Shown: positions 34,979-54,152 of the stretch, piece by piece
Numbering within the stretch: position 1 is the stretch's first letter
Layout: each line of letters opens with the position of its first letter
DNA from: Lishizhenia tianjinensis
GTDB lineage: Bacteria > Bacteroidota > Bacteroidia > Flavobacteriales_D > Crocinitomicaceae
Assembly (NCBI RefSeq): GCF_900116425.1
Contig: NZ_FPAS01000007.1
Location: 1-58,814 of the forward strand
Length of the DNA stretch: 58,814 nt
Direction of reading: 5' to 3'
Program-made: the position numbers and the translations under genes
Notes under the pieces: model-generated
What the model saw: the letters and a program-made list of their open reading frames with translations, nothing else
Told to the model about the DNA's origin: nothing
Database searches by the model: none

Positions 34979-36529
34979 ATGCCGCTACTGAACTCCAAAA
35001 GAACCCTCATGCTTGCCTTATTGGCAACGGGGATGGCGGGTATAGTAGCTGAGTATATTTTGGCCACTTTGGCTACCTACTTTTTAGGAGATTCTGTTTT
35101 TCAGTGGACCATCATTCTGTCCCTTATGCTCTTTTCTATGGGCTTGGGAAGTAGAATAAGTAGATGGATTAAATCAAATCTTGAAGCTTGGTTTGTAGGA
35201 ATTGAGTTTACGCTCTCCATCCTTACCTCTTTATCTTCCTTATTCGTCTACCTATTGATGCCTCATCTTTCCAATTTGGCACCTTCCATTTATTTATTGG
35301 CCATCGTCATAGGAGCCTTAATTGGTATGGAAATTCCTTTGGTAACACGTATCAATGCAAAAAATGCGGAGTTGAGAACCAACATTAGCGAGGTGATGGA
35401 AAAGGATTATTTTGGTTCTTTGTTGGGAGGACTTTTCTTTGCTTTCGTCGGAATCAAGTATTTAGGAATTACCTATACACCGTTTATCGTTGGTGGGGTT
35501 AACCTCATTGTGGCTGTTTTGGTTTTTTTCAAGTTCAAGAAATACATCCTTCAAGGATTATTAAATAAATTAAGTGTCTTTGGGGGAGTTGTGGTGATCG
35601 CCATATTGGGAGGTTTGTATTTTTCAGAACCCATTGTGCTATACGGAAATCAGAATTTATACACGGGGAAAGTAGTTTTTAGTGAACAAACACCTTATCA
35701 GAAAATCACCATCACCAAATGGCAGAAAGATTATTGGCTTTACCTCAATTCAGGTAAACAGTTAAGCACTTTTGATGAATGGATGTATCATGAGCCCTTG
35801 GTTCATCCAGCTGTTCAATTGGCGGGTAAACCAAAACATGTTTTGCTCATGGGAGCGGGAGATGGATGTGCCATTAGAGAATTATTGAAATATCCTTTTA
35901 TCGATAGTATTACGCTTGTTGATTTAGATCCGAGAATGATAGAAATAGGTCAAACACAACCTATTTTACGTAAGGTAAATCAAGATGCATATCAATCCTC
36001 TAAGGTAAATGTTGTAGTTGGTGATGCCTTCAATTATTTAGAGAAAACCCCCAAAGTATACGACGTTATTATTGCCGATTTTCCAGACCCACGAAGTGTA
36101 GATTTGAGTCGTTTATATTCGAAAGAGATGTACAATTTGGTGTATCATCGATTATCCCACAATGGTGTATTCATCACTCAAGCGGCGAGTCCGTACTACA
36201 CCACAAAAGCATTTCGTTGTATAGAGAAAACCATGCAAGCGGCTAATTTCAATGTGCTGCCTTTACACAATCACATCTATACTTTCGGTGAATGGGGCTG
36301 GATGATGGGAACAAAGAAGTTACCCGCATCTTTCATGAAAGAAAAAATTGAGGCCATGACTTGGGAAACTATCCCTACCAAATTTTTAACCCCTTCTGCC
36401 AGTCAGATGATTACGAATTTTGGTGGAGACTTGGTAGAAGTAGATAGCAATGATTTGAAAATCAATAGTATTTACAACCCTGTGCTCTACAGGTATTACG
36501 GCGAAGGAAACTGGAGTTATTACTTCTAA
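34979..36529 (+). CDS. Membrane protein with spermidine-synthase-like domain
   Basis: A 516-residue fusion: about seven membrane helices in the first 215 residues ('LMALLATGMAGIVAEYILATL', 'LIGMEIPLVTRIN') followed by a spermidine-synthase-like Rossmann domain. There 'LLMGAGDGCAIRELLKY' stands for the aminopropyltransferase motif I, 'SITLVDLDPRMIEIG' binds the nucleoside, and 'IIADFPDPRSVDLSRLYS' corresponds to the 'DSTDP' gate of classical enzymes but lacks that exact sequence. Such membrane-fused forms are common in bacteria; polyamine synthesis is not proven for them. It ends the run that begins at 31582. Confidence 0.85.
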   Translation: MPLLNSKRTLMLALLATGMAGIVAEYILATLATYFLGDSVFQWTIILSLMLFSMGLGSRISRWIKSNLEAWFVGIEFTLSILTSLSSLFVYLLMPHLSNLAPSIYLLAIVIGALIGMEIPLVTRINAKNAELRTNISEVMEKDYFGSLLGGLFFAFVGIKYLGITYTPFIVGGVNLIVAVLVFFKFKKYILQGLLNKLSVFGGVVVIAILGGLYFSEPIVLYGNQNLYTGKVVFSEQTPYQKITITKWQKDYWLYLNSGKQLSTFDEWMYHEPLVHPAVQLAGKPKHVLLMGAGDGCAIRELLKYPFIDSITLVDLDPRMIEIGQTQPILRKVNQDAYQSSKVNVVVGDAFNYLEKTPKVYDVIIADFPDPRSVDLSRLYSKEMYNLVYHRLSHNGVFITQAASPYYTTKAFRCIEKTMQAANFNVLPLHNHIYTFGEWGWMMGTKKLPASFMKEKIEAMTWETIPTKFLTPSASQMITNFGGDLVEVDSNDLKINSIYNPVLYRYYGEGNWSYYF

Positions 36530-47880: not shown

Positions 47881-49125
47881 CTATTGTCGAGAAACATAAG
47901 CCCCACTAACTTCTTGTTTTGCTGCAGGAAGTGCATCTACAGCTTCTTGGAAACTGCTATAACTGTTCATGGAAACTCTGTGTAAGCCGCCAAAGATACC
48001 AATGATTTCCGCATTGTAGCCCTTGGCTCTTAATTCTTCCACTTGTTTTTCTGCATTTTCAAGCTCGGAGAAGTTTCCACAAATCATTTTGTATTTTCCA
48101 GAAGTTTGAACGGGTGTTGTTGTGATTTCTTCTACTGTTTCCTCGGCAACATCATTATCCTCGTCAACTTCCGTTTCTTCTATTGCAGTTTCTGTTTGCT
48201 CTAGAGTTGTAACAGTATCTGTATCTACCAATGTTTCATTACGTAAAGTAGTGTCGGCAACGACCTCTTCTTGTTCAGTAGCGGCTTGTTCTTCCACCTC
48301 TGGAGTTACTTTAACTTCTGTTTTAGGAGTTTCTTCCTTATTATCGGCAAAGTAAGATTGAATTTTTTCAAGTTGTAAGGCTGCAAAAGTTCCAGCTCCT
48401 ATAATTAAAACCAAGATGATAATTAATCCAACTCTGTTTTTCTTCTTTTCCTTTTTAGGAGGAACAGTAACCACCTTTTTAACGGTAGCAACCTTAATAC
48501 CTTCCGTTTTAGGCTGAGGTGTAGGATCTTTTGCTTTGCTTTCTTTTTCAGTTTCTTCTTCCTTTTCCTCAGAAATCACTTCTTCCACCGGAGTAGGAGG
48601 AATGTAAGTATTTACTTTTTTAGGAGTTTCTTCGTCTGGTTTTTCTTCAATATCCTCAACGGGAGTTTCTATTTCTTCCGAAATGCTAAGTGTGTCTTCT
48701 ACTTCATTGTTTGAAAGCTCAACTTCATCCGCAGGAGACAGCTCTTCCTCGGCTTGAGCTTCCTCTTCTTCAACTATGGTCTGCACCGCTGCAACGCCAA
48801 CATCTTTTATCTTTTCCCAAGGAACAAAAACGATTTTCCCATCTTTGTTTTTGGTGAAAGAACCGAATTCAAACATGTCGTAAGATTCACCCTTATCTAA
48901 TTGAGCATTGATCTCTCGAACATATTTAGATATGAAATTCAAGGCTTCTTGCTCATCCATGTTAGAGTTCTCCACAATGAAATTCACCAATTTTCCATCG
49001 TTGAATTTCAAGTACTCATTAAAAAGTAAATCACCTGTTTTTTCATTGGCAATGATAATGGCCCCGAATTCGGGGATGATAACCGTACTTTCTAATTGAA
49101 GTAAAAGCTGAAGATACTTATTCAT
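47881..49125 (-). CDS. HU-CCDC81-like / SPOR domain membrane protein
   Basis: A 414-residue protein typical of Bacteroidota. The first about 105 residues form a HU/CCDC81-like domain ('MNKYLQLLLQLESTVIIPEFG', 'FNDGKLVNFIVENSNMDEQEAL', 'FEFGSFTKNKDGKIVFVPW'). A long acidic, Glu-rich and Pro-rich linker follows, then one membrane helix after 'KKEKKKNR' (about 228-246), a second acidic Thr-rich linker and a C-terminal SPOR domain (about 342-412, 'KYKMICGNFSELENAEKQVEELRAKGYNAEII'). SPOR domains bind denuded peptidoglycan at division sites, while the cytoplasmic HU-like domain could touch DNA, so it could link envelope and chromosome. That link is inference. Confidence 0.88.
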   Translation of the reverse strand: MNKYLQLLLQLESTVIIPEFGAIIIANEKTGDLLFNEYLKFNDGKLVNFIVENSNMDEQEALNFISKYVREINAQLDKGESYDMFEFGSFTKNKDGKIVFVPWEKIKDVGVAAVQTIVEEEEAQAEEELSPADEVELSNNEVEDTLSISEEIETPVEDIEEKPDEETPKKVNTYIPPTPVEEVISEEKEEETEKESKAKDPTPQPKTEGIKVATVKKVVTVPPKKEKKKNRVGLIIILVLIIGAGTFAALQLEKIQSYFADNKEETPKTEVKVTPEVEEQAATEQEEVVADTTLRNETLVDTDTVTTLEQTETAIEETEVDEDNDVAEETVEEITTTPVQTSGKYKMICGNFSELENAEKQVEELRAKGYNAEIIGIFGGLHRVSMNSYSSFQEAVDALPAAKQEVSGAYVSRQ

Positions 49126-49160
49126 GGCAAGCTATTTATGTTTAAAAATAGAGTTTTGAA

Positions 49161-50015
49161 TTAAAACAATTCATTAAAACTGAAGGTTTCCGATAAACGT
49201 ACGCCTTTTTCTGTTTGTTGTACGGTACAACATTCATTTACGCTATCGTGCTCTAAGAACAATATGTATTCCTCCTCTGCAGCGCGTTGTAAGAATTTTC
49301 CTTTTTCGTCCAAGGTTAAAAGCGGTCTAGTGTCGTAGCCCATAACATAGGGCAAAGGAATGTGCCCTGTACTTGGCAAAAGATCGGCCATGAAAACCAA
49401 GGTTTTTCCTTTGTACTTGATGTGGGGTATCATTTGACTTTCTGTATGTCCATCCACAAACAATAAGTCGATGTTGTTGAATACATTCTTAGCAAAATCT
49501 CCTTGTCTATCCACAAATTTCAATTGTCCAGATTCTTGAATAGGCAGAATGTTTTCTGATAAAAAAGAAGCTTTTTCTCTGGCATTGGGCTCTGTTGCCC
49601 ATTTCCAGTGCTTCTCTGTGCTCCAGTAGGTAGCATTTTTAAACACGGGCTCAAATCCAGTTCTGTCTTTGTTCCAGCGAATGGCTCCTCCACAGTGATC
49701 AAAGTGTAAGTGTGTTAAGAATACATCCGTGATATCATCCGGAGAGAATCCTAATTTTTTTAAGTTGCCTTGTAAGCTATCGTCTCCAAATAAGTAGTAG
49801 TGAGAAAAGAACTTTTCTGACTGTTTATCTCCTATACCGGTGTCAATTAAAATCAAACGATCACCGTCTTCAATTAACATAGAACGCATAGACCAATCAC
49901 ACATGTTGTTAGCATCTGCTGGGTTGGTTTTACTCCAAAGAGTTTTGGGTACAACACCGAACATTGCACCACCATCTAATTTGAAATTTCCTGTATTTAA
50001 AGGGTAAATAGTCAT
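49161..50015 (-). CDS. MBL-fold metallo-hydrolase
   Basis: A 284-residue metallo-beta-lactamase-fold protein. Metal motif 'THLHFDHCGG' (His102, His104, Asp106, His107), then 'DGHTESQMIPHI' with the next His and 'VFMADLLPSTGHI' with the bridging Asp. 'LIDTGIGDK' precedes the motif. Overall it resembles lactonase-like (AiiA/AttM-type) or other quorum-quenching MBL proteins of about 280 residues, but the substrate cannot be fixed. No signal peptide. A terminator for an upstream minus-strand gene lies 46 bp before its start. Confidence 0.88.
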   Translation of the reverse strand: MTIYPLNTGNFKLDGGAMFGVVPKTLWSKTNPADANNMCDWSMRSMLIEDGDRLILIDTGIGDKQSEKFFSHYYLFGDDSLQGNLKKLGFSPDDITDVFLTHLHFDHCGGAIRWNKDRTGFEPVFKNATYWSTEKHWKWATEPNAREKASFLSENILPIQESGQLKFVDRQGDFAKNVFNNIDLLFVDGHTESQMIPHIKYKGKTLVFMADLLPSTGHIPLPYVMGYDTRPLLTLDEKGKFLQRAAEEEYILFLEHDSVNECCTVQQTEKGVRLSETFSFNELF

Positions 50016-50060
50016 AGCTTCTTATTTTGCCCCTAAGTTATTAAGAGATTTGTAATAAAC

Positions 50061-50096
50061 GAAAAAGGTCGCACTATTTTGTGTAGTGCGACCTTT
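50061..50096 (-). terminator. Strong terminator for the 51-codon gene (minus strand)
   Basis: A perfect 13-bp stem (50064-50076 with 50084-50096, arms AAAGGTCGCACTA/TAGTGCGACCTTT on the plus strand) with a 7-nt loop. On the minus strand it runs into TTTTT, while on the plus strand only three Ts follow, so it serves minus-strand transcription. Confidence 0.85.
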
Positions 50097-50142
50097 ACCG
50101 AAACTAAAACTAAACTATGAAAATTATTGTACCTAATTTTCT

Positions 50143-50298
50143 TTATTCCAATTCGGGGCTACCACCGAGAATAGAGATAAAGAAAACGAACCCTGGTACC
50201 GGGCTGTTAGCGCTATATGCTAACCTGTGGTTTTCCCTTACAACCAACAAATCGTATTGTAAACCTCTTTTAAAATTTTTCACTATTTCTAGCTTCAT
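50143..50298 (-). CDS. Small 51-residue protein with own promoter and terminator
   Basis: A short open frame on the minus strand starts at the ATG at 50298-50296 and ends with TAA at 50145-50143. The product starts 'MKLEIVKNFKRGLQYDLLVV', continues 'RENHRLAYSANSPV' and has a hydrophobic C-terminal stretch 'PGFVFFISILGG' followed by 'SPELE'. It has no cysteine. A consensus promoter (TTTG-N20-TATCTTTG) lies 40 bp upstream and a 13-bp terminator 47 bp downstream; that exact framing of such a short frame argues for a real gene. The hydrophobic part is too short for a certain membrane span. I recognise no family and suggest no function. Alternatively the transcript is a regulatory RNA. Confidence 0.6.
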   Translation of the reverse strand: MKLEIVKNFKRGLQYDLLVVRENHRLAYSANSPVPGFVFFISILGGSPELE

Positions 50299-50337
50299 TT
50301 GAAAAGAGATGTTGTATGCTTTTCTCTAAATGCGGTG

Positions 50338-50369
50338 CAAAGATACATCCACTTTAAAGGGGATACAAA
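50338..50369 (-). promoter_or_regulatory. Complete minus-strand promoter TTTG-N20-TATCTTTG
   Basis: On the minus strand TTTG (plus 50366-50369) and TATCTTTG (plus 50338-50345) are separated by exactly 20 bp, the best Bacteroidota promoter match in the window. It directs transcription into the 51-codon gene. Confidence 0.75.
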
Positions 50370-50499
50370 TTTATTTTGGCAACAAAAGTTACATTATTGG
50401 AAACCAGAGTGTTTACGTATGCTGTTGAAGTGGAATTAATTAACGACTAAGTACTTAACTTGTAGACAGGTATTGATGAACTAGAAGAGGGTAGGAATG

Positions 50500-50528
50500 A
50501 AAAAAGCCCCAGTAAAACTGAGGCTTTT
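50500..50528 (-). terminator. Terminator after yidC (minus strand)
   Basis: Stem 50502-50512 with 50518-50528 (AAAAGCC..CAG paired with CTG..GGCTTTT, one mismatch); on the minus strand it is followed by six Ts. It separates yidC from the 51-codon unit. Confidence 0.8.
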
Positions 50529-50546
50529 AAGTATGATAGAACAAGA

Positions 50547-52529
50547 TTATTTTTTCATTTTCTCTTGCTGAGCTTTTTGCATTTGCTCAAGTCTTTCTTG
50601 GAATTTAGACTTCTTAGCTTTTTTAGTACCACCTGCATTTTCTGCTTTTTTAGCAGCCATTTTAGCTTTTAATTTCTCCTCATCTACAAAGAAGTTCTTA
50701 ATCAATACCATAGTTAAGATAGACATCAATGTTGAGATGAAGTAGTAGTAACTTAAACCAGATGAGTAATTGTTAAAGAAGAAGATCATCATGATAGGGA
50801 AGAAGTACATGATGTATTTCATGTTCGGCATTCCCTCTTGTTGCGGTTGTTGCATGTTACTACTGTTCAAAATCGTGTAGATTAAAGTAGTTGCCGCCAT
50901 CAACAAAGTGAATAAACTCACGTGATCTCCGTAGAAAGGAATATCAAAACTTAAGTTAGCAATGCTATCGTAAGATGATAAATCCTCTGCCCATAAGAAG
51001 CTCTTTTGTCTTAACTCAAAACTAGAAGGGAAGAATCTGAAGACGGCAAACAAGATAGGCATCTGTATCAACATAGGTACACATCCTGCCAAAGGCGAAG
51101 AACCTGTTTCCTTGTACAAGGCCATGGTCTCCATTTGCTTTTTCATAGCATCCTCTTTGTTCGGGTATTTCTTGTTTAACTCTTCTATCTCTGGTTTTAA
51201 GATACGCATCTTAGCAGATGATGTAAACATCTTCCATTGAATAGGAGTTAATACAGATTTAACTACGATAGTCAATAATAAGATAGCAATACCCAAGTTA
51301 ATTCCGAAGCTTGCAAACCAGTTAAACAAAGGTTGAATTGCATATACGTTTACCCATCTAAAGATACCCCAACCTAAGTTGATGATGTCTTCTGTTTCGT
51401 TGTTGTAAGACGCTAATAATTCGTAATCATTAGGACCAAAGAACCAGTTGATTTTTACAGAACCGTTGTCTGTAGAAGTCATCCCTAAATTCAATTGTGC
51501 TTGGTAGTCTTTGATGTGTGTATCGTAAAATGGAGAGTTTTCAGAGAAAGTAGTAATCTTCAAATCTGTACCATTCTTACCGAAACCATTCGCTGGCATC
51601 ATGATAGAAGAGAAGTAACTTTGCTTGAAAGCGATCCAGTCTAATTCTCCTTCAAACTCATCTTGATCATCATCAGAAGCTTCTGACAAGTAATCGTAGT
51701 TTTCATTTTTCTCTTTAAAGAAAACAGTTGAAATTCTTCTTTGCTCTGAAAGTAAACGCTCAGTTTTTGTCAATTTTGCTTGCCAATCTAACATTACGTT
51801 TTGCGGAGTAACTTCTCCCAATCCGTGCATACGGATTTCGTAAGTCATATCGTATTTTCCATCTTCTAAAGCGTAGATGTACTCAATAGACTTGTTTCCA
51901 CCTAAAGAATGACGTAAGGTTACATTGTTTTCGTTCTGACTAACAATTTCGAAAGCTTTCTCAGCAGTAGAATAAACTCCACCCTCGTAAGGGAAACGAA
52001 GTGCATTGCTTGCGTGATCACCATCGATTAATTCCAAAGCCGTAATTACACTGTCTTCTTTAGCGAAGTTCTCATAGCTTTCAAATTCTTTTAAAAGAAC
52101 GTTTGCTACTCTACCACCTTCAGTGTGTAATTCTATCTTTAATTTATCATTCTCTATCCAAACAGAGGTATTCTCAATTGCTGTTGTTGTAGTAGGTGTT
52201 TGTAATCCTCCAACAATAACAGTGTCTTTTTGAGTAAGCGTATCTGTGAAAATAGGGTTGTTTAATGAGTCAGTCGCTTGGATCCATGTAGAATCTTCGG
52301 TCATGATCATTTTCGCTTGTAGGTTATTGGCTACAGCTACTTGCTTTGCCTCTTCCAAAGAAATTGTATCCTGAGCTTTTGTAATTGCGGCTAAAGAATC
52401 TGCAACAGCTTGTTCCCTTGCTTCAATTTGTGCTTGGCGAATTTCCTCTTCTGTGGGTTGATTGAAGTAGGTGTAAAGGGCCAAAAGTCCCCCTATCAAA
52501 CCTAATCCAATAATTGTATTTCTATCCAT
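50547..52529 (-). CDS. yidC: Membrane protein insertase YidC
   Basis: Inserts and folds inner-membrane proteins alone or with SecYEG. The 660-residue protein has an N-terminal anchor (about residues 5-19), a linker, the large periplasmic beta domain (about 100-375) and the conserved five-helix core: 'NLGIAILLLTIVVKSVLTPIQWKMFTSSAKMRILKPEIEELNKKY' (about 415-460), 'ETGSSPLAGCVPMLIQMPILFAVFRFFPSSFELR' and the last helices before 'NYSSGLSYYYFIS'. A basic C-terminal tail ('KKAKKSKFQERLEQMQKAQQEKMKK') can bind ribosomes. It begins 9 bp after pyrG and shares its transcript. Confidence 0.97.
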   Translation of the reverse strand: MDRNTIIGLGLIGGLLALYTYFNQPTEEEIRQAQIEAREQAVADSLAAITKAQDTISLEEAKQVAVANNLQAKMIMTEDSTWIQATDSLNNPIFTDTLTQKDTVIVGGLQTPTTTTAIENTSVWIENDKLKIELHTEGGRVANVLLKEFESYENFAKEDSVITALELIDGDHASNALRFPYEGGVYSTAEKAFEIVSQNENNVTLRHSLGGNKSIEYIYALEDGKYDMTYEIRMHGLGEVTPQNVMLDWQAKLTKTERLLSEQRRISTVFFKEKNENYDYLSEASDDDQDEFEGELDWIAFKQSYFSSIMMPANGFGKNGTDLKITTFSENSPFYDTHIKDYQAQLNLGMTSTDNGSVKINWFFGPNDYELLASYNNETEDIINLGWGIFRWVNVYAIQPLFNWFASFGINLGIAILLLTIVVKSVLTPIQWKMFTSSAKMRILKPEIEELNKKYPNKEDAMKKQMETMALYKETGSSPLAGCVPMLIQMPILFAVFRFFPSSFELRQKSFLWAEDLSSYDSIANLSFDIPFYGDHVSLFTLLMAATTLIYTILNSSNMQQPQQEGMPNMKYIMYFFPIMMIFFFNNYSSGLSYYYFISTLMSILTMVLIKNFFVDEEKLKAKMAAKKAENAGGTKKAKKSKFQERLEQMQKAQQEKMKK

Positions 52530-52538
52530 TTCGTATGA

Positions 52539-54152
<1,614 letters not shown>

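Follow-up and report, generated by a model that had tools for sequence, protein, structure and literature searches.

A candidate small RNA unit carrying a tRNA-Asp-type promoter and leader between yidC and an MBL-fold hydrolase gene of Lishizhenia tianjinensis

Does the gap between yidC and the gene of an MBL-fold hydrolase in Lishizhenia tianjinensis hide a small protein gene or the gene of an RNA? In the 58,814-nt stretch of DNA that was analyzed (the window), this gap holds a 51-codon frame, a promoter, and a terminator, all on the minus strand. The upstream gene (50547 to 52529, minus strand) was assigned to yidC by profile matches to 60KD_IMP and YidC_periplas, and the downstream gene (49161 to 50015, minus strand) to the MBL-fold hydrolases by a match to Lactamase_B; the NCBIfam model nearest to the latter, the YtnP lactonase, matched below its cut-off. 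The gene that follows upstream of yidC (52539 to 54149) is presumably pyrG.

The sigma-A-type promoter TTTG-N20-TATCTTTG was located by sequence match at 50338 to 50369 on the minus strand, exactly as the first-pass annotation of this DNA had described it. It is one of three matches to the looser pattern TTTG-N17-22-TAnnTTTG in the window, and the remaining two lie inside genes, one within yidC and one within the gene 52539 to 54149. The form TTTG-N19-21-TATCTTTG did not occur in 400 kb of the same genome, and TATCTTTG alone occurred there 25 times. In Flavobacterium, the -7 box TAnnTTTG sits at -12 to -5, according to the available part of the source (PMC9723704). With the same placement, the predicted transcription start falls near 50333 and the predicted RNA has a length of about 273 nt.

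On the other side of the frame, the terminator scan with a shuffle control identified an intrinsic terminator at 50064 to 50096 (minus strand) with a perfect 13-bp stem, a 7-nt loop, and a T-rich tail, in which TTCGTTTATT comes after the T's of the stem. None of 500 dinucleotide shuffles of the unit reached a perfect hairpin of 13 pairs, the longest having 12, and the earlier description of this terminator is thus confirmed. A general terminator scan of positions 48000 to 52600 with loose criteria returned three sites, with 3.3 expected. The 3' side of yidC was likewise found to carry its own terminator-like hairpin, as had been proposed, at about 50500 to 50528; it was read by eye and is absent from the output of the general scan. 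Its own promoter and its own terminator give the unit, at the level of sequence, the features of an independent small RNA, and together with the hairpin behind yidC they support the proposed independent unit of about 270 nt.

The terminator end and the start codon of the hydrolase gene are separated by 48 nt on the same strand, and this gap holds only a weak -7-like match (TAACTTAG, five of six positions, a score equalled by 44% of shuffled upstream regions). Both features would suit a 5' leader or attenuator of the hydrolase gene, in which a conditional terminator lets read-through transcribe the hydrolase. We regard such a conditional leader as very unlikely, since upstream folding hardly competes with the terminator: the fold up to the terminator competes little for its 5' arm, with a gain of 3.2 kcal/mol. 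Nor did whole-family BLASTN, among the matches listed, reveal another MBL or yidC gene accompanied by the unit. An antiterminator was considered separately, and secondary-structure prediction, carried out without pseudoknots or ligands, gave no competing alternative pairing.

A feature unseen in the first-pass annotation came from the first approximately 75 nt of the unit, which resemble the leader that stands before tRNA-Asp in other genera of the family Crocinitomicaceae, with a 5'-terminal hairpin, then a spacer that contains ACA, and then a helix enclosing a second, inner hairpin. The 5'-terminal hairpin P0 (GCATTTAGAGAAAAGC, 50318 to 50333, minus strand) is common to the tRNA-Asp leaders of other genera. 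In the predicted fold it is followed by the leader helix P1 (50264 to 50309, minus strand), whose 8 bp pair 50309 to 50302 with 50271 to 50264, and by the inner hairpin P2 enclosed in it (50293 to 50282, minus strand; 4 bp, GCUA-GAAA-UAGU). P0, P1, and P2 form when the leader is folded alone, and folds of the whole transcript replace P0 by other pairing.

The resemblance was recovered by three kinds of search. In BLASTN of the unit against 58 relatives, six matched at an E-value of 0.001 or better; in five of them the match lay just behind a tRNA-Asp promoter, at the start of the leader, and the sixth (L007) lay elsewhere. The leader pattern TTTGCANNGCNTTTNNNGAAANGCAYACA, with up to two mismatches, gave 15 matches in 99 other genomes of the family, 13 of them directly before tRNA-Asp (12 assigned by ARAGORN and one by reading, in L176, where the gene is cut by the contig end) and two, in L181 and L182, not in this position. 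In the genome of L. tianjinensis itself, a related pattern at up to three mismatches was present only at the 50061 to 50369 site.

The third search used the covariance model R1, which begins after the TTTG of the promoter and for which 16 tRNA-Asp leaders of other genera supplied the sequences. These were 16 of 23 extracted leaders; L168, L169, and L170 were omitted as longer and L198, L213, L201, and L202 as diverged. The 23 did not include the leaders of genus g6 and some others, many of which carry long inserts. R1 models P0 and P2, not P1. It matched the stretch 50272 to 50337 (minus strand) from end to end (model positions 1 to 74 of 74) with 32.3 bits, the top score in the window (E-value 3.6e-6; next match 16.3 bits). 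On the whole genome, the site again ranked first (E-value 2.1e-4; next match 23.5 bits), these E-values being rough by the tool's own statement. The second genome match falls inside a 670-codon open frame, and the next seven of the ten genome matches, when checked, had no tRNA nearby.

The two tRNA-Asp genes of L. tianjinensis itself (G000:C2, from 762368 and 762485) are preceded by another kind of leader, unmatched by R1 at an E-value of 10, and R1 consequently misses some members of the group. The region of this tandem pair (L183:1496-2110, G000:C2 from 762363) continues with further tRNA-Asp-like fragments that have CATCCCCAAGCATCTTGGGGACGAG between the anticodon and the T-loop; ARAGORN calls the first two genes only.

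The leader in the family was described from the tRNA-Asp upstream regions of 30 selected genomes, 26 of them giving a match. These regions share a plan, with some variation: the 5' hairpin P0 comes first, then a spacer, and then the helix P1, which encloses the inner hairpin P2 and closes at the tRNA's first G. The closing helix has the form CAA...UUG; of 38 distinct leaders, 26 have a best helix that starts with CAA or CAG after ACA or ATA. RNAalifold on 16 leaders kept P0 and P2; both sides of the three P2 pairs change in 7, 6, and 2 of the 16 sequences, and no pair is broken. At least six P1 pairs ending on the first base of the tRNA are formed by 29 of the 38 leaders, compared to 43% with the 3' strand taken from another genus, a weak control because the strands are alike in sequence. 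In a few leaders the best helix is located elsewhere than at the first base of the tRNA. Since the closing helix reaches this base, the leader may influence tRNA processing.

Rfam searches of eight tRNA-Asp loci returned tRNA matches only and no family for the leader, and in the literature no title or abstract start was found describing such a tRNA-Asp leader, which is no proof of absence. The leader stands before tRNA-Asp in many of the loci L168 to L180 and L194 to L223, for example, at L200:1427-1500, L195:1425-1500, and L194:1426-1500. In L168, L169, and L170 (genus g9), a conserved stretch, CAAGTCTCGTATGGCTGCGGGAATCAGAAAAGCTCTGCAAGT, lies right behind tRNA-Asp.

The unit shares with the family leader the TAnnTTTG-type promoter, a 5' GC(U/A)UUU...AAAGC-like hairpin, the ACA-containing spacer, a closing helix ending in G (the GG of the 8-bp P1 in the unit, G1 of the tRNA in the tRNA leaders), and the inner hairpin. 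It differs from the family leader in the P2 loop, which is GAAA in the unit and UGUU, UGUA, or UUUA in many tRNA leaders, and in the sequence of P1 (UCUCUUUU/AAAAGAGG). Unlike the leader element of Crocinitomicaceae, the unit does not stand directly before a tRNA-Asp gene.

ARAGORN found no tRNA in the window, and the tRNA model RF00005 had no match at 49900 to 50560 up to an E-value of 10. The RNA body at 50097 to 50263 (minus strand), judged by searches and folding, has no detected relatives and is not a recognizable tRNA. A degenerate tRNA-Asp in the body was also considered and rejected: local alignment paired GGTTAG and GGGTTCG, but 16 to 22% of shuffles did as well, and alignment of tRNA-Asp anchored at the leader end scored below the shuffle mean and was reached by 82 to 88% of shuffles.

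The folding z-score of the whole transcript was -5.34 in one run and -6.0 in another, decreasing in magnitude to -2.7 without the terminator; the body by itself gave -1.8 and the leader by itself -1.0. The low value is mostly due to the terminator, so that the structure of the transcript is only slightly above that expected from its composition. Within the body, hairpins were predicted at 50224 to 50206 and 50205 to 50189. In BLASTN against 239 other genomes of the family, the body (the unit without its first bases) gave only short and weak matches among the matches listed, the best of these covering 30 bases with an E-value of 8.7e-6.

The neighborhood was also compared among relatives. In 29 relatives, no yidC was present in the 1500 bases upstream of the MBL gene (1287 in one). 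In the stretch of up to 420 bases after yidC, also read in 29 relatives, the MBL gene followed directly in two, L042 and L044, both of genus g12, and the intergenic gap there could not hold the unit. Elsewhere among the relatives, some kilobases separate yidC from the MBL gene. Among the best 80 of 578 GTDB loci found with the MBL gene, yidC lay within 4000 bases before it in one, L157, which is probably the same genome as L042, and none of these 80 loci had a BLASTN match to the unit at an E-value of 0.01. Many of the GTDB loci are labelled Crocinitomicaceae, Brumimicrobium, or Fluviicola. By these BLASTN and locus comparisons, the unit was seen in one genome only, none of the relatives compared being labelled as the same genus.

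These observations would also suit a transcribed relic, in which a tRNA-Asp promoter and leader, displaced and parted from its tRNA, now yields a functionless transcript whose length is limited by the terminator. The resemblance of the leader is clear, the body lacks detected relatives and folds just slightly better than shuffles, and the unit was seen in a single genome. As the body has no detected relative, it bears no sign of selection, which keeps the relic a serious rival. Promoter, P0, P1, P2, and the perfect 13-bp terminator are nevertheless all intact, beyond what decay should leave, and the body contains no significant remnant of tRNA-Asp in the anchored alignment. On balance, we consider a relic improbable, at roughly half the weight given to a functional RNA.

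Searches against known RNA families and mobile sources returned no significant match to the unit. Rfam gave no match in the whole window at the gathering score, and at an E-value of 10 the region 49900 to 50560 gave 14 weak matches, all with E-values of 0.23 or worse and far below the gathering scores. Plasmid, phage, and viral sources of the unit gave no match. The 6S-Flavo family (RF01685) was tried as a candidate and had no match to the unit at an E-value of 10 and none in the genome at 0.001; it was likewise silent in 14 of 14 control genomes.

The 51-codon frame is present at 50143 to 50298 on the minus strand with an ATG start, as the first-pass annotation had it, and its coding status is doubtful. 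A frame of at least 51 codons on the same strand was found in 4.8% of 1000 dinucleotide shuffles (ATG starts only, 1.7%) and on either strand in 11.4%, so that the length is mildly beyond chance. When codon usage was tabulated from 319 long ORFs of this genome, the score of the frame was 0.068 per codon, which places it at the 26th percentile among gene fragments. This gene-like score was reached by 3.5% of 705 spurious ORFs, and in an earlier estimate with 45 long ORFs of the window, 1 of 90 spurious frames scored as high as the 51-codon frame; in both cases ORFs with a minimum of 150 or 120 codons, rather than annotated genes, served for training. Both codon estimates lean towards coding when set against spurious ORFs.

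These codon scores, the rarity of an ATG frame of this length, and a helix of residues 2 to 29 predicted by AlphaFold from the single sequence (fair confidence; block means 85, 77, and 64; mean pLDDT 66) speak for a small protein, which would be a basic peptide, hydrophobic in its C-terminal segment, and may be encoded on a dual-function RNA. The predicted helix does not decide the coding question, and an equally high codon score was found in 28.6% of 112 small intergenic ORFs, the 51-codon frame itself among these. The start context is unremarkable by the 319-ORF set (22% of genes as low or lower) and poor by the 45-ORF set (no gene as low), the smaller training set being more favorable to a protein in codons and less so in start context than the larger one. 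Moreover, the start codon and the first codons fall within the tRNA-type leader.

The tBLASTn search that had been proposed as a check of the product found no relative in 138 loci of relatives, several of them sharing a genome, with a best E-value of 0.70 (140 loci counting two of the own genome). The product likewise had no relative in viral contigs, plasmids, phages, Pfam, or PHROGs, and its single match in NCBIfam, with an E-value of 0.28, is due to chance. Of the two possibilities left side by side in the first-pass annotation, the protein is therefore disfavored by the missing relatives and by the start codon inside the leader, codon usage being inconclusive, and the RNA fits better. We judge a small protein to be unlikely, and a lineage-specific non-coding RNA appears more likely than a new 51-residue protein.

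The reading we favor, though with little more than an even degree of confidence, is that the unit represents a lineage-restricted, probably non-coding RNA of about 270 nt placed on a displaced tRNA-Asp promoter and leader. Transcription would begin at the strong housekeeping promoter and proceed at a housekeeping-like rate. The transcript would be shielded from decay by its 5'-terminal hairpin and by the stem of the terminator, and the leader would be followed by the body of about 170 nt until the terminator ends the RNA after about 273 nt. Such a stable RNA may act untranslated, most likely in trans by base pairing. Its origin probably lies in a displaced or duplicated tRNA-Asp promoter and leader, as the present tRNA-Asp pair is located elsewhere in the genome and lacks the leader of the unit. 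Targets were predicted in 367 start regions within 459 kb of the genome, and the best duplex of -35.5 kcal/mol did not stand above the shuffles, six shuffled RNAs reaching best values of -31.1 to -40.9 kcal/mol.

A more far-reaching version of a functional RNA, which we hold to be highly improbable, would make the family tRNA-Asp leader itself a regulatory RNA that binds a factor, for example, of tRNA processing or elongation. Freed from the tRNA at this site, it would act in trans and titrate the factor or link it to new targets, and the tRNA-Asp genes of this genome would have lost the element.

Two known kinds of loci come near to the favored non-coding RNA. Independent small transcripts (indep TRs) of Flavobacterium psychrophilum, such as Rfp18, have a median length of 176 bp, and of the 45 that are non-antisense, 18 are strongly structured; they are without coding potential, in the available part of that report (PMC9723704). 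The unit resembles them as a short independent unit, and TAnnTTTG promoters occur in that species; the indep TRs, however, were found in transcriptome data and tend to be conserved throughout that species, while the unit is known here from one genome, and the available text mentions no tRNA-type leader for them, such as the unit has (PMC9723704). The second is tRNAOther of Bacillus cereus, which, as far as the available part of the source describes it, is likewise a tRNA-gene-related RNA locus not serving translation; it is a predicted pseudo-tRNA, whereas the unit has no recognizable tRNA-like body (PMC3399842).

If expressed, the unit would be a new small RNA gene made from a tRNA promoter and a structured leader before an unrelated sequence, and would illustrate a concrete way in which small RNAs can arise in bacteria. 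The site also draws attention to the structured tRNA-Asp leader in many genera of one family, without an Rfam match at the eight loci searched, and this family leader may be more generally interesting and useful than the orphan unit.

Two further observations were made in the window. In a coarse folding scan with 172-nt tiles and 40 shuffles per tile, low z-scores were obtained at 36501 (plus strand, -5.0), 46001 (both strands, -4.7 and -3.95), and 38501 (minus strand, -3.47), and these tiles are perhaps terminators. On the plus strand opposite the unit, a 61-codon frame extends over 50117 to 50302, a length found in 2.6% of shuffles; it has a gene-like start context (CTAAAACTAAACTATGAAAATTATT) and codon usage that is not gene-like, and the terminator hairpin lies immediately upstream of it.
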